DNA of 64,000 nt from Ulva prolifera. Taxonomy: Eukaryota; Chlorophyta; Ulvophyceae; Ulvales; Ulvaceae. This document shows, piece after piece, positions 9,009 to 63,091 of the stretch. The translations under genes were made by a program, and so were the position numbers. The stretch lies in contig CM041197.1 of assembly GCA_023078555.1 (NCBI GenBank), positions 10,536,552-10,600,551 of the forward strand. The letters run 5' to 3'. The notes beneath the pieces were generated by a model that was given only the letters and a program-made list of their open reading frames with translations, did not search any database and was not told the DNA's origin. The stretch's first letter is position 1; every line of letters begins with the position of its first letter.

Positions 9009-9108
9009 NNNNNNNNNNNNNNNNNNNNNNNNNNNNNNNNNNNNNNNNNNNNNNNNNNNNNNNNNNNNNNNNNNNNNNNNNNNNNNNNNNNNNNNNNNNN
9101 NNNNNNNN
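9009..9108. other. Assembly gap (100 N)
   Basis: Exactly 100 undetermined bases, the usual placeholder for a gap of unknown size. It falls just downstream of the last readable exon of the recombinase gene, whose C-terminus may lie inside or beyond the gap. Confidence 0.98.
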
Positions 9109-9219
9109 CTTGCAGGTTACCCGTCACGCCGGCGTGCTGCTGCAGAGGCAAACGCGCGCAATCAGACGCCATACGCGGGCGGGCGGTGGGACCGGAGCAC
9201 AGATGGGCTGGCGACGTAC

Positions 9220-12156
9220 CATGCCTCCGAGCGTGGTCGCGGCCGCCCGGTTGGAGAAGTAGTGCACCATCGCGGCAGAGTTGCTGTTCTGCACCCAGGC
9301 GCCCGCGTGCCGCATGACGGTCTCGTCCGGGGCGCGATCCGAGGTGATCTGCATCAGCACCTGCCGCAAGACCATCGAGGAACGCAGCGCCCGGACGCCG
9401 ACCTTGACGCCGCGGCCAGGTGGACCGACGTCCGCGAGAACGCCCGCCATCGCGACCAGCCACGAGATCCGCGTCCCCGGCACGTTGATGTAGGGCAGCA
9501 TCAGCAGGTCGTCCTGAGCACAGATGACGTACCTGCAACAAGTCATAGGTGAGGTGCGAGTGGACACGGCAGCTCTGCTGGGCCCACTTCCCTGCTCCAT
9601 AGCTTGCGTCCGTTCGGATTGCGATTGCTCTGTCAGTTGCATGGAGTCAAAGTCTTCCAGATCGACATCATGCACGAAACAGCGATCGGCATCCCATGCG
9701 CTCTGCACTGCCTGTTTTCAGCATGTGGCCATGCTGTCAGAAGGATGCATGGTGTCAGAGAATGACCCATGTCTGTTCATCAGAGGTGAAGGCAGGAACA
9801 AATCATATGTGCTGGTGCATGTGGATGATGCTGATTGTGATGGCTCTGCCGACAGCTGAGCAGGAGGCTGATATGCTGCTGGGCGAGCATTTTCAGGTGA
9901 AGGATCTGCGACCGCTGCATTTCTTTCTGGGGCAGCAAGTTGAAGAAGTGGCTGGAGAAGGCCTGCTATTGAGGCAGCCTCAGCATGCCAAGAATGTGCT
10001 ACAGAGGGCCAACATGGGGGGTTTTTTGTTTTTTTTTTATGATTGTTATTATTCAGCTGCCATGGCGGTGAAAGAAGCAGTGTGGCTGAGGAAGTTGCTG
10101 GGTGATACCTATGGTCGTGTTGAGCGGATGACTGCTTGTTGTGACGATCAGAGCCTCTGAGTGCTTTGCATCTGACGAAGCAGAGGACTGCTGGCGCTCC
10201 AGGAAGGAGCCAACACATCGACATCCAGCAGCACTTCATTAGGAACAGATTTATGCGACAGGAGAATGATGTCCAGTTTGTGCCGACAGCTGAGCAGGAG
10301 GCTGATATGCTGACCGAGGCTTTGGCCGGTCCAGCGCTGGGAAAGGCAGTGGATGGGCTCGTGGTTGAACCTCCGAGCGACAGCGACAGCGCACGAGGGG
10401 GTGTGCGGGGGGCAGAGCTCCCCTGGTGCAAGCGTGTCTTAGCTGTGATGACGCCGTAGCTGTCAATTCCAGGTCATCTTTCACTGGCAATTGGCAGGTG
10501 AGAATGCGTTGCTGTTTCCGTGTGTCTGTCTACCGGCTACAGCAGAGATCAGAGTGCTGAGCGTGATACGTCGTGCAGCAGTCTGTACTGTATGACTAGT
10601 GATCCTAGCAGCTAACAGAGCTCAGACTGCCGCAGGTGGGACACACGGCAGAGTTATTCTGCAAGGTCTGTGACCGGCAATTGACAGGATTCTGTGACAG
10701 GCCGCGGCGCACCACTCCTCCGTCCCAGGCTTGCACGTCAGCATCTCCCCGAAGGCGAGGGCGTCGAGGGACGCCCAGTCGAAGACGCCCATCGCCAGGC
10801 CAAGCTCGACCACGGCGTTTCCGACGAGCGGCAGGCCCCGCCTCGCCGGCAGGCCCGTGGGGTCGAGCGCGAGGACGTTGACGCCGTACGCGTTCGGCGC
10901 CTTGGTGACCACGTGGCGCGTGACGAGAGCGTAGCCGATCTGCGGAGGCAACGGCGCGGGTGAGCGCAGGGGACGCAGGCGCGGCGGGCGGAGGCACAGC
11001 GGGCGGATCCGGCGCAGGCGGCCCGGACGGCGGGTTGCAGGCGGATCTGGAGCGGGAGCCGCGCACCGTCGTGTCCTTCCGGGCCATGTTCTCCTCGGAG
11101 GCCTGCACCGCCTCGCCGTCCAGCAACAGGACCTTCTGCAGGAACACGTCCTGCCAGCGCCAGAACTGGAAGAACGTGCTGCGGACGCCCACGATGGCGG
11201 TCAGCGCGAACACGGCGCGCGCCTGGAGCATCCCGAACCCGCCGACGTACATGCCCTCCACCGTCCGACGGATCTGGCCCTCCGTCAGGGGCGTGATCTT
11301 GCGCGTCCCGCCGAGCCCCGACGACTTGATGTACATCGCGACGCCCTTCACGACGCTCTTGTAGCGCTGGAAGGGGCTCGCAGCCTCCACCACCTGGACA
11401 GGCAGCGGGGTGAGGGCGGTCGCATGCGCCGTGCGACTGCAGGCCCCCGCCCACGGCGGCTGACACGCCAGCGGCGCGGCAGGGCGGCCCCTCTGAGCAC
11501 AACTGCGGGCCCCTCCGCGACGCCGCGGACGACAGGCCGCACCCCCGTCGCCCTCAGCAACGCGGCCGCCCGTGAGCGGCGCGGCGACGCCGGACGGGGC
11601 ACGCACCTCGTTCGTCGCCGCATAGTACTCGCCCATGAGGTTCCCCACCGCGTTCTTGATGCCGTCCAGCGAGCCCTTGCTGCCGATGACCTTGCTGTAC
11701 AGCAGCACGTGGAGGACCTCGACGAACCGGTCCTTCGTCATGGTCCTCCACGACTTGACGGCCTCGAACATGTCGACGACGAGGCTCTTCTGCCCGTCGG
11801 CGGACGTCTCCTCCCGCAGCATGGCGTCGGTGTCCTCGCCGCGGAGGGACATGACGGCGTAGTGGGCGCGGGTGAAACGCAGCGCGCCGCGCTCGCCGTC
11901 CTCGAGGCCGGGCAGCGTGCGGTGGAAGCGCGACAGCAGGAGGCGCCACTCCGCGGGGTCCGGGAGGACGCAGTCGGGCTTCTCGGTGGCGTTCAGCGCC
12001 GCGCACACCGCGCGCGACGGCTTGCCCATCCGGCTGACCTCCTCCGCCGCGCGGTTCAGGCACGCGCGGGCTTTCTCCATGCGCTCCCTCGTCAGGCCGG
12101 CGCCCTCCAGCGCTCTGAAGGCCTCCTCGCCCGCCGGGTTCAACTCGTACCTCCGC
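9220..12156 (-). CDS. Spliced tyrosine recombinase (Crypton-like or domesticated), partial
   Basis: Four GC-rich exons splice in phase on the minus strand: 12156-11607, 11393-11067, 10939-10737 and 9532-9220. They give about 464 residues with N- and C-terminal parts missing. Exon 2 carries a hydrophobic helix ending in GVR and then WRWQDV, matching the first catalytic arginine region of tyrosine recombinases. Exon 3 has a beta-hairpin lysine (VVTKAPN). Exon 4 has RALRSS (box II, with Arg where His is usual in HxxR), RHAGAW (second His) and VHYFSN (nucleophilic Tyr). Such enzymes cut and rejoin DNA through a 3'-phosphotyrosine. No reverse transcriptase in the same orientation is attached, which argues against a DIRS element. 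Donors are GTGCGT, GTGCGC, GTGCAA and GTACGT. Exon 1 starts at an acceptor (CGCTCGCAG), so at least one upstream exon exists, perhaps in the GC-rich island at 13.4-14.6 kb. Confidence 0.72.
9690..10425 (+). pseudogene. Decayed Ty1/copia reverse transcriptase and RNase H remnant
   Basis: Plus-strand frames hold copia pol signatures in pieces: LVHVDD (RT active-site region, about 9815-9833); FQVKDLRPLHFFLGQQVE about 9890-9945 in another frame; and, after a break, SQHIDIQQHFIRN plus a TAEQEADMLTEAL segment (10205-10330) from the RNase H C-terminus. Frameshifts and a missing middle make it non-functional. It lies antisense inside the intron between recombinase exons 3 and 4. A 32-bp block around GACAGCTGAGCAGGAGGCTG occurs twice, at about 9848 and 10281. 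Confidence 0.75.
10457..10700 (+). mobile_element. Copia LTR-like 3' end (family 2, copy 1)
   Basis: Follows the copia remnant. It begins near TGTCAATTCCAGGTCATC and shares about 240 bp with 13079-13320, including the shared upstream stretch CAGAGCTCCCCTGGTGCAAG. It is the likely 3' LTR of the preceding remnant. Exact ends are uncertain because no target duplication was found. Confidence 0.55.
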
Positions 12157-12221
12157 CTGCGAGCGGCGACAGGTCGGGTCACATGCGCTGCTGTGCTCGA
12201 GCAGACGCCCCGTGTACGGGG

Positions 12222-12690
12222 ACGCCGTCACTGTAGAGAGTCTGATATGCCACCAGGCTGGTACGGGGTCATGTACCGGCGAGAGATTGTGGAGGCATCG
12301 GGCAGTGGGTGATCTGTTGTCTGTAAAATTTTCAGAGACAAATTAGGCGATCTGTGTAGTTGGGCCTGATTGCGCTCTCAGTAGGCTTGGCTGCCACCCG
12401 GGGGTGCAGCACAGCACCCATACACCGCTCTGACACCCCCGCCGCACGGGCGACAGCTGCGCAACAATCCTGTCCTTTGGATGCAAACAGCACAGTTTGC
12501 TTTGGAGTCTACGGGACTTGATTGCCGTGAGTTCCGCCAGGCAGCGTGCGGGTGGGCCCGGTGATCCGCAGAGTCGAGTGGCCCCATAAGCGTTTTCGTG
12601 ACCGTGTCCACACACCCGACTCGGCGTGCGAACGTGGGCTGCGCTGCTGGCTCAAATGTGAGGAACGCACGCAGCACACATGACCAAGGA
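12222..12690 (-). repeat. Dispersed repeat family R1, copy 1 (inverted copy at 52510-52930)
   Basis: About 450 bp match the reverse complement of 52510-52930, for example GGGGTGCAGCACAGCACCCA against its complement near 52745. Divergence is moderate with small indels. No coding capacity was recognised. It interrupts the upstream part of the recombinase locus. Confidence 0.75.
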
Positions 12691-12866
12691 AACAGGTAAG
12701 TGTAGGATACACCCTTCTCATCATGCACATGCTGTCTCAGCTCTCAAGCTCCATTGGGCTGTGCATGCTGCTCTCTCCAGCAAGAGGACACACAGAGACA
12801 AACGTGACAGGACAGGACACGCAGGCGGGCAACAGCCAATAGTAAGATATCGCATGCCACCTCCAG

Positions 12867-12909
12867 TGTACTGTGGCAGCGAGCTGGTGTACTGTGGCAG
12901 CGACCTGGC
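12867..12909. repeat. 21-bp direct duplication
   Basis: The phrase GTGTACTGTGGCAGCGA occurs twice back to back just before a second copy of the copia family-2 3' region (12950-12985). Confidence 0.7.
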
Positions 12910-13074
12910 TGCATATGTGACCTTGCAGTGGTCGGGGCTGTTGTGGGAAGCAGAGCTCCCCTGGTGCAAGCGTGTCGTAGCTGCGCTAACGCGAGTGCAG
13001 CAGATCACATGCATTTGGCTGTGAGTCTGCGGGCAGCCCGTAGGTCGGCTGTCCATTGCACAGAATATAGGACG

Positions 13075-13370
13075 TAGCTGTCAATTCCAGGTCATCTTTG
13101 ACTGGCAATTGACAGGTGAGAATGCTTTGCTGTCTGTGTGTGTCTGTCGTCTGACAATAGCAGAGATCAGTGTGCTGAGCGTACTACGTGGTGCAGGAGT
13201 CTGTACTGTATGACTATAGTGATCATAGCAGCTAACAGAGCTCAGACTGCCACAGGTGAGACACACGGCACAGTTATTCTGTAAGATCTTTGACTAGTAC
13301 TGGCAATTGACAGGAGTCTGTACTGTATGACTAGTGATCATAGCAGCTCACAGAGCTCATATTGCCACAG
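13075..13370 (+). mobile_element. Copia LTR-like segment (family 2, copy 2) with internal duplication
   Basis: Matches 10457-10700 closely. A ~60-bp block starting GGAGTCTGTACTGTATGACT appears twice (13194-13255 and 13312-13370), so the copy carries a ~118-bp tandem duplication. The shared 3' coding-end remnant lies at 12950-12985, separated from it by about 90 bp of extra sequence. Confidence 0.55.
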
Positions 13371-13439
13371 TACCCGGCATGTGTACTGTTGGCCGCGTGC
13401 ACCGCTGGCGCATGCATGTAGCGCGGAACTGCAGCCGCT

Positions 13440-14600
13440 CCGCGGGCAGCGCCAGGCGGCTGCAACCTTCGCCACACCGCGATGCCACCTATTGACAACG
13501 TGACGTCAGGTACCGTGCGCCTGCCACGCGAGCGACCCGGGCGTGCACGGCGAGCGCGGCCCTATCGCGGGGCGAAGCGGGGTCGGCAGGTGCTGGCGCG
13601 GCTGCCGCGCGATATGCATGCGGCATGCGTCGTGCGACCGCGACCTCGCCCCGTCTGCGCGCCCTCTATCCCGGACCGCCGCAGCGACCGGCGCCCGGGC
13701 GGCGCCGCGTGCACCGCGAGGCCTCCCGGGAGGCTGCCGTGCACTCGACGTCGCCGCTGTGGCCGCCGGGACCGCGCAGCGGCGCCAGCGGGCAGCGGTC
13801 GGTGCGTCGACAGCGCGCGGCGCGCGTGTGCATTGCGCATGCACGCGCCGCGGCGACCCTGCTGACGCCGCGGCCTTACGCTCGCGTCCACGGGCTGCAG
13901 CAGCTCGCGCACCTCTCCGCGGCCTTCCTCCGCTGCTCTGCGGCCGAATCCTGCTCCATCTCTTCTCCTCGGAATATATCCTGCCCGTGCCGGCCGGCTG
14001 CTGGCCGTGGCGGGCTGTCCCGCCTCGCTGCCTCCCTCGACGCTCGGAGACCGCCCCGCGACGCCTGCTTCGCGCCCTACGCCCGCCTCAGTGTCGAATA
14101 CCGATGATTCTCTTCTGATAGACCGATCCTCGCCGCGCCGTGCGCCTCTCGCCCGCCACGCCACCCGCTGCACGTCGCTGCGCTGCCTCGGCGCTCGCAC
14201 CGCCGCTCCTGCCTCCGACGGCTCGGAACGAAGCCTCTGAAACGCTATCAAACGCTGTATCACCTATTCTAGCGAAAAATACCCGCCGCCGCGCCGTCTC
14301 TACGCCGCTGTCGCTCGCCCGGGTCCGTGACAACGCCGACGTCTCGCATGCACGCTCGCCTGTGCTAACAACGCACGCGAATGCCATCCGCAGGCTCCCC
14401 AGCCGTCCCTAACGGGCCTCGCCCGCCGCGAAACGTCGGTTTCCCGTCGGTCTCGCGGAACGCGCGCCCCCCCTGCGCCACGCCCAGATGGTCCGGGTTT
14501 CGCGCGCTTCCTGCACCGCCCCCCGGCCGCTGCCGCCGCCGCCGCCGCCAAAATCGCCGCGCTTTCGACGCCCGCACCGCGTCGACCCATGCGAAAAGTG
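13440..14600. other. GC-rich, CpG-rich island
   Basis: The stretch is far richer in G, C and CpG than its neighbours, and all six frames stay open for long distances, which is compositional. It resembles the base composition of the recombinase exons at 9.2-12.2 kb. It may hold the promoter and 5' exons of that minus-strand gene, but no exon can be assigned. Confidence 0.5.
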
Positions 14601-14646
14601 CTAAAATACTACCTGTCACGGCTAATTAACTTAACGCAACAGGAAA

Positions 14647-19578: not shown

Positions 19579-20925
19579 ATGGAGCACCAACAGAACCCAA
19601 TGAATGCTGTCCGCAAGCTGAAGCGGGACGGCGACTATCGCATGTGGGCGGTGCATTTTGAAGCCTCTATGGTGACCATGGACTGCGAGCGCTGGCTCAC
19701 AGAGGAGCCAGACGTTGCAGTACCGGCTACAGTCCGGGAGGACGTCAACGCCAAAAGCAGAATGCTGCTGACGGTAGATGACAGGGGATTGATGAAGATC
19801 ATCCAACGCGCTGTCACTGCATGCCATGACGGCGTAGGAGAGTGTGCGGGCTGAGTTAACGCTCTAAGCGGAATTGCAGCTACGCCAGCCACTCATGGAG
19901 AACCAGCTGAACGCGATGCAGCAAGGGTCGACAGAGACCTGCGTGCGGTTCGCGGAGCGTGTGCTGGAGGTGCTTGAGAAGCTCGAAGACACGGACTTTG
20001 AGGCGGCGGATCAGCTGGCCGTGAATGCTTTTGTGCGAGGACTGCGAGACTCGGCAGAGAAGGGGTCTCTAGTGCTGATCTTGACCCCGCATGTGGTGTC
20101 TGGATTCAGCCGGGTCGTCACGGAGCTGAAGTCTGCGACGCGCCTTCTGGAGAGGGCCCGGGAGCAATCTGCGCACAAGGACAGAGAAGGGCGTGCGATG
20201 CAGTCTGAGGCCGACAAGCCAAGGAGGGAGACGAGAAAGTGCTTCAACTGCGGAAAGCAAGGGCACATTGCGAAGGACAACAACCTGTCCAAGAAGGAGA
20301 AGCCTGGCGCAGCAATGATGGCAGTATGCGAAGCGATGGCCACAAGTGTGCTAGGGGGCGATGGCCGGCGGGGAATGTTGTACGATAGCGGCTGCTCACA
20401 CCACAGCGTCCACGATATCAGCGCAGTTCGCAACAGTTCGCAGAGACCCAGCGAGACCAAGAGAGTGGTGCTGGGAGGCGGGGAGGGGCATGACGTGCTC
20501 TGCGAAGGCGAAGTGTGGCTAGGCGGAGGACTACATGGCGTGGTTGAGCTTCGTTCTGTGATGTGCGTGCCAAGCATGAAGGTCAATCTGCTGTCGGGGC
20601 ACTTGGCCACCGAGGCGGGACACGAGTGCTGGCAGCGAGGCAAGAAGTGCTGCATCATCGACGCAGAGGGCTACGTGGTTCTGAGGGGCCACAAGAATGC
20701 ACGTCTGTACAGGCTTGACTGCTACGTGATGTTTGCGGCCGCACCTTCGCAAGCTGCGGCACATGTGGTTGTGTCAGCAGAGACATGGCATCGGCGCCTG
20801 GGACATCCGGGCCGCAACGTGGTGCGGGAGATGGCTACAGCTTCAGCACACCCGGGCCTAGGCTTGGCGAACAGAATCGCCATCGTTTCAGGTTCAAGCC
20901 ATGGGCAATGTACGTTCAAGCGTTT
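19579..20925 (+). pseudogene. Ty1/copia gag-protease-integrase N-terminus, frameshifted and truncated
   Basis: The first frame (19579-19854) begins MEHQQNPMNAVRKL and has a W..HFEASM gag-like start. Reading then shifts to a second frame from about 19860. That frame continues gag, then a zinc knuckle (CFNCGKQGHIAKDN, last Cys replaced by Asn), the aspartic protease motif YDSGCSHH (about 20380-20403), and the GAG-pre-integrase motif WHRRLGHPG (about 20789-20815). Copia-like sequence stops near 20925 before the integrase catalytic core; RT and RNase H are absent. The single frameshift, the lost zinc ligand and the truncation mark it as non-autonomous. Confidence 0.85.
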
Positions 20926-21645
20926 CATTTTCGCATGTTTACACATGTTGATCTGTGACGATTATACGCATCACGATGATTCTCTATCGGTGTCAGATGC
21001 TGCGTGACCGCATTCAAATGTCGTCTGCAGGTTGAAACACAAATCAAACGGTGAAGTTTTTACATTCGTATACGCTGGAGATACGTAAACTATTCAGGTT
21101 AGTGTCGAGCTTGTGTTGTGTGTTGCGGACCAGCCAATGAATCGGTTGCTGAATGCTTCCGAATTGGGCAAGCTGGGGAGTCCGCAGCTTGCCCAAACCT
21201 GAACCGGAATGGAGTTGTCTTTCAAGTTGACGCCACCCATGTGTCCGCTTTGGTGAACTGCCATAGCTATAGGTTGCCCTGTGTGCAGTTGTGGAGAGCA
21301 TCGAGCATGTGCGAGCCACATCCACAACGGTCACGGCGTATGATCGCCCCGTGTGCAGGTGTGGAGCAGAATTTCGTATGTGGATATTTGTGAGGCAACT
21401 TCATATGGTTGTATGCTGTGATGTTCAAGGTGGCTCAATGTTCTTGATCTGGTATGAAGCTGGCTCCATGTTACATCTGTTCCGAGGCATTGCATTGACT
21501 ACTCACGTTGCGAACTCTGCAGTACGTTTGAGTGCTCGGCTTAAATTGTTGTGGCCTATGCTGATCATGAGAGATTAGATGATTACAACATCCATTGCAT
21601 GGCAGGTATGTCTCGCAGCTTCCAGCATTTGCTAGCCTATGCTAG
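20926..21645. other. Stretch with no recognised gene
   Basis: Short frames only. A near-duplicate phrase, CCGTGTGCAG.TGTGGAG, occurs at about 21279 and 21348, hinting at a local tandem duplication. Confidence 0.4.
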
Positions 21646-59910: not shown

Positions 59911-60385
59911 AAGTGTTCACCTGCTACAGTCTACCTGTATGCAATCAATATACCCAACTGCCATGACTCTCTACACAGAGCTGATCAGACCTATGCATGC
60001 ACATGCATATGCACACAGTGCACTAGACTACACAGCAACTTCTCAAGACAATTCATGCAAGTGTGGGAGTCATGGATGTGTGCTTGTGGAAGTGTCCAGC
60101 CTAAGAATGGCTGGGTTCAGATGGAGCTGCTTTCCTGCCTCTGTGCATGCTAGCCAGAGCATTTTGACCTCCTGTATGTTGGGTTTGATATCTTGGAACC
60201 GTTGATCCGACGATTTCTTGGAACTGTTGATCCGAGTCTGGAAATTTTGTGACGTGATGCTTTACTTGATGACACAGCTGTAGGCTACACAGCTGTAGGT
60301 GTTACTGCTGTCATTGCTATGTGAATTTTCGCAGTGACACAGCTTTGGCAGTTTTGCAGCCCTGACGAGCATTCCAGGCTCGGAT

Positions 60386-63091
60386 ATGTGCTCAGTGTAT
60401 CGTTTGAGGTGGTGCTGTGTTACAAGGACAACGGCAGCAAGGCGGGCAGCACCGCGAAAGAAGCAAACAGACGAAGCAAACACACAGGAGACAGTCGCAA
60501 AATTTGAGACAGCCCTGCAAGCGCCCCTTGCGCAGTTGCTGCACGACATGGACTCATGTAGCATGCCGCATGCTGAAGCTGCCAACACTTTCACATCTGC
60601 CCTGGCAAACATCCTACGTACCGCAGGAGAGCAATGCTTTGGGAAACACCAGGTACGGACCCATCGCGTGCAATGGTGGAACAAAGAATATGCAGACCTC
60701 AGACGCGAATGCTGGACCCTTCATGAGACACATTGCCGGACCGGCAGCGACACTGACAAGCTAGCATTCCAGCAACGCCGAGGTGCAAAGAACCAGCTGA
60801 AACGCGATCTTAAACGTGCATACACCAAACAGCAAGCCAACCATGTCTCTAAAACGTGCACGCCAGGACTTGAGTCTAAAGTTTCATGGGTGTCTGCGAA
60901 ACGTTTGTTGAAACTGCTAACCAGGGGTGGCTCGACGGCCGAGCACCCCGTGCCTTCTGTTATGTCTGGGGGAGTCCCCACTGATAATATAGACACAGTG
61001 ATGCAGGTTTTCTCGAATCACTACCAATCTGAAATGAACCCGGTCCCACATGCCACATTCTGCGAGCAAACTGATGCACATGTCAGAGACACATTGCACG
61101 CATGGCGCCAAAATGAGCCTCCACACAACCAAGAGATGGATGATGCCTTCACACTTCACGAACTTCAACAAGCACTTGCTACAATGCACAACTGGAAAGC
61201 CGCAGACCACGATGATATCATCTGCGAACTACTGAAGGCCGGGGGGCCGCAATTGCAAACCGTCGTCCTGCAGCTCCTCAATTTCTGCTGGACGCACGAA
61301 ACCATTCCCAATGCGTGGTCACTCGGAACAATTGTAAGCCTCCACAAAGCCGGGGATGCAACAGACCCCTCCAACTACCGGGGTATCACACTGCTTTCAA
61401 TATTCCGGAAGCTTTTCAGCACACTACTCAGGTCCCGCCTCCAAAACAATATAACCCTCCATGAGTCCCAAGCCGCATTCCGCGAGGATCGCGGCTGTGT
61501 AGACCATGTCCACACCTTTGCACGCATTGTCCGGGCGGCCGCCGCGGCGGACACTCCACTTTATGCTTTCTTCCTGGACATCCGGAAAGCATATGATACT
61601 GTGTGGCGCGACGGTCTGTTGTACAAACTACTCCAGAAAGGAGTGACAGGCCGCCTCGGTCGGGTCATCGCACACATGCTCTCAAACACGAAATCGAGGG
61701 TGCGCTTCCAAGACCAGGAATCACCATACTTCCCCATCACCCTCGGGGTCGGCCAAGGCGACCCCCTGTCAACCATTCTCTTTGATGTGTTCATTGATGA
61801 TCTGCTCGCAACACTGCACACCCGTCCAAAAGAACTCTGCATTCCCCTTGACTCACCAGACACCGATAAAATTTCCGGACTCACTTATGCAGATGATGTC
61901 AATGCAATGTCCTTGACACCGGCAGGGCTTCAGGGACATATTGATACAATCGATAAATGGTTGTTTCAATGGCGCTCCTTACCAAATGTGTTGAAGTCTA
62001 AAACTATGGTGTTCAATCAGCCGCAGGGCGGCGCACCAGTTGTCTTCCAGCTGCGGGGGTCGCAGTTGGAGACTGTTCACACCTACAAATACTTGGGTGT
62101 TTTCTTCCAGTCAAATGGCTCTTGGTCTGAACATATGCATCATGTACGCGCAAAGATGAACAAGGCACTTGGCGCGTGGCGGCCAGTGCTGCGTTGCCAC
62201 TACCTCCCGGTGACCGCCCGGCTCCGCCTTGTTTATGCGTTCATATATACTCCTGCTTTGTATGGGGCTGAGGTATGGATTGGCCCAAAAACTGAACTCG
62301 ACAAACTTGATACCATCTGTAAAAAGGCAATCCGCATGGTGTTTGGTCTGCACCAGTTCGATTGCAGGGAGGAGATTCTTTTTTCCGACACGGGCCTCCT
62401 GCCTGTGAGCTCAATGATCAAGGCAGCTAAACTTTGCTGGTACGCAAAGCTGACACACATGGGGGCGGAGCGATTCCCGGTTGCGGTGGAATCCACCGCG
62501 ATTCGGGGTCACTCTCAACGGGGGCCGGGGGTGGGCGGGGACTTTCACTCCCGCATCACGGCCATTGCGGCAGAACTGAAACGATATGCACACATCAGAC
62601 TTGCCTTACAGGCTCCACCCGAGCCTGAGCATCGCCGCCGACGTGGGCCACCCAGGGTGTCCAAACGTCTCGGCATGCATGATCAGCCGTCCAAACAAAG
62701 CCCTCTCACAATCACGTACTCAAATCTTACCCGTGAGAAGGTCGTGGCTGTCATGTGGTTGGCATACCTTGAACAACGATTTGAGAAGCGTGGTCGCGAC
62801 AATAAGGTCACTGGAGAGTGGTTGCGTGGTGTGATAACACACGAACTAGGGTCACTAGCCCCGTTTATGGACTCCGTTGAGCCCGGTCTTGTGCGTGTGC
62901 TAATGTCTGCTCGTTCGGGTCTGTCTCCTTTCTTGTGTAGGCACCGTAGTGAAAAGCATTTGGAATATTCACGTGCTGCTGATGTCTTCACATCCTACAT
63001 CGCACGTGCACCCATCGGGGCAGTTCTGCCACCTGTCCCAGTGGCACATCGTGATCGGCATGTCTCCGCCGTTGCGGTTTTGGTGCGGTAG
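60386..63091 (+). mobile_element. LINE (non-LTR retrotransposon) ORF with reverse transcriptase
   Basis: A 901-codon open frame. After about 230 residues of pre-RT sequence come the RT motifs: ELLKAGGPQLQ, NYRGITLLSIFRKLFS, AFREDRGCVDHVHT, FFLDIRKAYDTVW (about residue 392), GVGQGDPLSTILFDVF and the active site TYADDVNAM (about residue 501). A C-terminal domain of about 350 residues follows, ending with a C..H-containing tail (LCRHRSEKHL). No endonuclease domain precedes it, and the first residues come from a dispersed repeat also found at 438-502, so the copy is probably 5'-truncated. The uninterrupted frame suggests recent activity. It lies downstream of, and may be in an intron of, the plus-strand SRCR gene. 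Confidence 0.9.

Follow-up and report, generated by a model that had tools for sequence, protein, structure and literature searches.

A probable large, intron-bearing transposon of the recombinase type, 3'-incomplete in the window, with SBP-like zinc modules and a PIF1-like helicase

Gene structure in the window

The window (the whole stretch of 64,000 nucleotides that was analyzed) carries on its minus strand a multi-exon gene for a recombinase-like protein. Exon 2 (12156-11607) encodes the N-terminal portion of this protein, exon 3 (11393-11067) the box-I Arg (GVR) and WQDV, exon 4 (10939-10713) the conserved Lys (VVTKAPN), and exon 5 (9532-9220) the box-II Arg (RALRSS), GxW and the Tyr (HYF). 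These four exons were placed by joining of open reading frames, together with spliced alignment for exon 2 and motif alignment for exons 3 to 5, and all of them have an AG acceptor and a GT donor. Joined, they give 472 amino acids, in phase and free of stops; the third-position GC of this frame is 0.958, against a mean GC of about 0.54 in the window. The first-pass annotation had reported four in-phase exons here, and its outer coordinates are exact; splice sites and open frame are confirmed as well. Its exon count fell short, since the gene extends beyond these four exons on both sides. Upstream, at 13959-13913 (minus strand), a likely exon 1 with the start codon and an end two bases into a codon was spotted by eye, and its phase fits in the spliced alignment; in the B copy the spliced aligner missed exon 1. 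According to spliced alignment a sixth exon, of about 115 aa in other copies, begins at 9139 on the same strand; its start (9139-9110) runs into an assembly gap (100 N, 9009-9108) that interrupts the gene. Exon order and phases recur in other copies, of which the C-type copies carry extra introns. The exon set is not a product of chance, because the same exons and phases are found in other copies and dN/dS is 0.145-0.386 (see below).

Within the window the element extends on the minus strand from its 5' boundary at position 14615, an end common to six other copies, to the gap (9109-14615); the alignment to a C2 copy also ends at this gap. The 5' terminal sequence, CAGGTAGTATTTTAGCACTTTTCGC, occupies 14591-14615 (minus strand) and was delimited by comparing the 5' ends of the copies. 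The intron between exons 4 and 5 (9533-10712) is common to the C2 copy, as judged by alignment. On its plus strand it holds, by eye, an apparent decayed piece of a Copia reverse transcriptase. Related repeats at 10453-10750 and 12934-13370 lie in two introns of the gene; both align, with 82-87% identity, to one and the same intron in the C2 copy. Elsewhere the window contains a long open frame at 60338-63088 (plus strand; RVT_1, E 1.5e-24; non-LTR-like), a Copia-type gag/pol piece at 19868-21004 (plus strand; matches to zf-CCHC, gag_pre-integrs and Pol_BBD), and a 138-bp tandem repeat at 1274-2483 (8.8 copies, 93% matches).

Probable assignment to the tyrosine recombinases

The gene is best read as a spliced eukaryotic tyrosine recombinase, as proposed in the first-pass annotation, but no curated profile matches it. 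In a motif alignment of seven divergent families Arg, Lys, Arg and Trp are invariant in all seven, and so is a Tyr 11-12 residues past the Trp, which the aligner shifts by one residue in families D and E. The series GxR...W.D[VI], Lys, LR[ST], GxW and Tyr is kept down to hardly recognizable sequence identity. Four of the catalytic residues named from the window alone, the Arg of GVR, the Lys of VVTK, the box-II Arg and the Tyr of HYF, are conserved across the seven families; the proposed catalytic His of RHAGAW is lost elsewhere (the C8 copy has EMKGDW, families D and E have LRGQW and LSGQW), the Trp of that motif being the conserved residue. The usual box-II pattern is H-x-x-R, and the position of its His is Arg in seven of seven families; substitutions at this place occur within the tyrosine recombinase superfamily. 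The spacing from R to W is 29 residues and that from W to Y 11-12, against 22-23 and 9 in usual tyrosine recombinases.

A profile search, which the first-pass annotation had suggested as a check, yielded no match of the recombinase domain to Pfam, PHROGs or NCBIfam profiles, nor to PDB sequences, and the PF00589 profile had 0 matches in the genome from which the window comes. Comparison by hhalign with XerD, FimB, FimE, lambda Int and Cre gave a score of 26.5 (P 0.0079, probability 5%), with ten shuffles and two reversals scoring at most 16.1. A larger profile of 74 recombinases, for which 69 of 80 loci with relatives passed a length and motif filter and 80 loci with relatives of lambda Int were left out, gave 26.6 (P 0.0054, probability 7%). 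Its 30 shuffles reached at most 24.6, so that one of them nearly matches the real score, the next being 18.9 and the reversal 15.5. In the 74-member alignment the box-I Arg pairs with the box-I Arg and RALRSS with HVLRHA, with Trp and Tyr unpaired; in the five-protein alignment the second Arg is offset. An AlphaFold model of exon 5 alone was uninformative (pLDDT 37). We read the protein as a putative divergent tyrosine recombinase in which Arg takes the box-II His position and Trp the His/Trp position; confidence is lowered because Trp and Tyr stay unpaired and the overall HH-suite probability of similarity is only 5-10%. It is unlikely that the protein is no tyrosine recombinase, its motifs being coincidental and the element moving by other means. 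Such an explanation would suit the missing curated match, the weak HH-suite probability and the long spacings; it leaves aside the motif series kept in seven families and the two Arg that are colinear in the profile alignment.

Copies, insertion sites and accompanying modules

At least 129 exon places in the genome of origin (88.9 Mb, 44 contigs) match the protein. Copy number had been named in the first-pass annotation as a point to check, together with the flanking ends; a hand count from the match table gives at least 29 loci with the first large exon, on contigs C1, C2, C6, C9 and C10. Copy counts are lower bounds, with 90 of 173 candidates scored. Ten of the 29 loci are A-type, that is, window-like (one with a stop), five are B-type (about 75% identical) and 14 are C-type (50-55% identical). 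Further relatives are a divergent one on C8 (34% identity, 204 of 596 positions), a broken one at C1:7.98 Mb, and families D (C1:3.54-3.77 Mb) and E (C5:3.36-3.47 Mb), which have the same recombinase motifs. Zinc modules also occur in D (L054, C1:3.55 Mb) and E (L053, C5:3.44 Mb), and an 839-aa open frame ahead of the family D gene is perhaps an N-terminal extension. All copies inside any one cluster are on the same strand. Such clusters, among them C6:5.62-5.92 Mb, C9:1.03-1.08 Mb and C2:10.84-10.90 Mb, may mark special chromosome regions and could, for example, be centromeric. About 340 bases in intron 1 of a C6 copy (L032, 3730-4071) recur at 11 further places of the genome with 77-93% identity, and shorter pieces of this repeat sit on small contigs. 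Nei-Gojobori dN/dS was calculated for eight pairs, one of which lacks synonymous changes and has no ratio. The other seven range from 0.145 to 0.386. Pairs of the same type gave 0.19 for the window against the C6 A copy (12 synonymous and 7 non-synonymous changes), 0.17 for B and 0.15 and 0.24 for C; pairs of different types gave 0.30 for A-B, 0.39 for A-C and 0.38 for B-C. The gene is under purifying selection.

The comparison of 5' ends covered ten upstream regions, one of them the reference. In seven, the reference included, a sharp 5' boundary with unrelated flanks is seen, and the remaining three did not align. This common end precedes exon 1 by about 0.66 kb and is found on four contigs. 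The start is CAGG[T/C]AGTATTTTAGCAC in the window and in two copies each on C6 and C9, and AGGAGAGTCTTTTAGCAC in one C1 copy and one further C6 copy. Several copies begin inside others: one starts within a C-type gene, in its active-site exon, one has its 5' end at a B-type exon and another inside a separate A copy, and the 5' end of a B-type element lies within a C-type intron. Between host and element 0-17 extra bases were counted by eye where the uninterrupted sequence is known. The downstream part of the host was not found at nested junctions in either of the two informative searches (exon 6; A/B 3' region), an unexplained result, since simple insertion or plain cut-and-paste would leave it in place. 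The element's 3' end was not found by comparing copies; the A-type copies on C9 and C1 share a span of at least 13.1 kb, in which they differ by about 0.5 kb, and are alike into the helicase. Two candidate termini were discarded: CAGGT as a short repeat at both ends, since two copies continue past it, and C2:10882773 as 3' end, which is a break of that single copy. A third, the last base common to the C10 and C1:2.77 Mb copies, lies within the reading frame of the helicase and is possibly another break.

Of the two options in the earlier proposal, a Crypton transposon or a domesticated recombinase, mobility is favoured over domestication because of the many copies, the sharp common 5' end with unrelated flanks, and the copies inside copies. 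A host gene family, possibly domesticated, that was spread by segmental duplication in heterochromatic regions and is not itself mobile would account for the clusters, the purifying selection and a C+B block of about 12 kb that is present twice within C6. It is improbable given that copies on four contigs begin at the same sharp 5' boundary next to unrelated flanks, and that 5' ends lie within coding exons and introns of relatives.

In other copies the open frames run more than 700 residues further, with repeated C-x4-C / C-x2-H / C-x2-C modules, about three to four per protein as counted by eye, in a part where exon boundaries are not fixed. On pieces of this part PF03110 (SBP) matched at E 5.1e-4, 0.0069 and 0.028; four of eight pieces had no PF03110 match, one of the four matching an unrelated family weakly. 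Genome-wide, the same profile gave 30 matches at E up to 1, for a Pfam cut-off of 27 bits: two strong genes with at least 60 bits, two family D copies with 27.4 and 27.9 bits, and four C-type copies with 27-27.3 bits only when neighbouring matches are added (one of these has an in-frame stop), all others being below the cut-off. Of 14 control genomes none exceeds the cut-off and three give weak signals. The SBP domain is called plant-specific in the literature (PMC7238634), and this, together with the two strongly matching genes, is the basis for placing the host in the green lineage. The modules resemble those of SBP-domain transcription factors in the C-x4-C, C-x2-H, C-x2-C arrangement and in best PF03110 scores at the cut-off, and differ in that about three to four occur in one protein with a recombinase-like domain.

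A genome search for the downstream ATPase returned 13 rows at 12 loci. At eight of the 12 the ATPase follows exon 2 on the same strand at a distance of 8.8-11.5 kb, in A-, B-, C- and C8-type copies; three more loci are within recombinase clusters, and one, on C5, is about 95 kb from cluster E. The C10 ATPase, joined by hand from three exon readings, scored 22.8 bits (E 7.9e-5) with PIF1 PF05970, below the cut-off of 25.9, and PIF1 was its first match in the PDB (E 0.018, or 0.0013 with a two-sequence profile). The A-type helicase piece alone gave only a weak AAA_16 match. Inclusion of the helicase in the element rests on co-location. No RVT_1 match lay in recombinase clusters among the best 150 of 452 candidates, a list from which the window's own RVT_1 frame is absent. 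A classical Crypton, a recombinase-only transposon with 4-6 bp direct repeats and the helicase as a chance neighbour, would agree with the introns, the recombinase-like protein and the lack of a reverse transcriptase among the matches listed. It is quite improbable, given the same-strand helicase at a roughly constant distance at 8 of 12 loci, next to four types of copy, and the C9 and C1 A-type copies that are alike into the helicase. Pairing of a recombinase with a helicase is common in DNA viruses, where the two serve as integration and replication genes in the reading of the locus as an endogenous virus-like element; introns throughout, and two pattern scans that found no relative among viral contigs, make this reading highly improbable.

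With a probability of roughly two in three, the locus holds a fairly young copy, incomplete at the 3' end, of a large DNA transposon with introns that is of the recombinase type and resides in a host of the green lineage. Reading inward from the 5' end, such an element would encode the tyrosine-recombinase-like protein, with tandem SBP-like zinc modules in the C-terminal part, and then the PIF1-like helicase. The recombinase would cut and join through its tyrosine, perhaps by way of a circular intermediate, the zinc modules may bind the element ends or the target, and the helicase may unwind or replicate the element. Repeated insertion in the same orientation into existing copies would produce the same-strand clusters. 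A bolder version, which we consider unlikely, makes this a new green-lineage transposon superfamily apart from Cryptons, which would use a tyrosine recombinase and a PIF1-like helicase to move and would insert with polarity into its own copies, its zinc modules sharing ancestry with the plant SBP domain or being the source of that domain.

Comparison with known systems

Eukaryotes have few transposons based on a recombinase, and little is understood of how these move. An element that combines a helicase and plant-type zinc modules with a clear 5' end and numerous fairly young copies would lend itself to tests, and it has a bearing on the origin of the plant-specific SBP domain. The literature searched held no element with a recombinase plus SBP or plus PIF1 among the matches listed, which does not prove novelty, subscription papers being mostly outside the search.

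DIRS, Ngaro and PAT retrotransposons have a recombinase domain with GxW before the Tyr, as here, and differ from the present element in their reverse transcriptase, of which the clusters hold none among the matches listed. Helicases of Helitrons are of the PIF1 type, a likeness to the present helicase. Going by the genes found, a recombinase-like protein would take the place of the Rep endonuclease, Helitrons encoding a Rep-helicase protein (PMC6431247). Starships of fungi are described as large, multi-gene elements with a 5' recombinase gene reading inward, some families of which insert into other transposable elements (PMC12134995). The present element is similar in its inward-facing recombinase gene at the 5' end, its large multi-gene make-up and its insertion into transposable elements; unlike a Starship it has zinc modules and a helicase, its host, judged by the SBP evidence, is no fungus, and the DUF3435 captain profile (PF11917) matched none of 5 alignment members. 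Cryptons are described as transposons with a recombinase as sole enzyme, bounded by 4-6 bp direct repeats (PMC3212892). The element shares with them a recombinase basis, introns and the lack of a reverse transcriptase among the matches listed, and is set apart by its larger size (at least 13.1 kb), the SBP-like zinc modules, the PIF1-like helicase and the Arg in place of the box-II His. It is Crypton-like in outline and logic, and no standard Crypton; a recombinase-like protein with plant-type zinc modules and an accompanying helicase gene appears to be an unusual combination.
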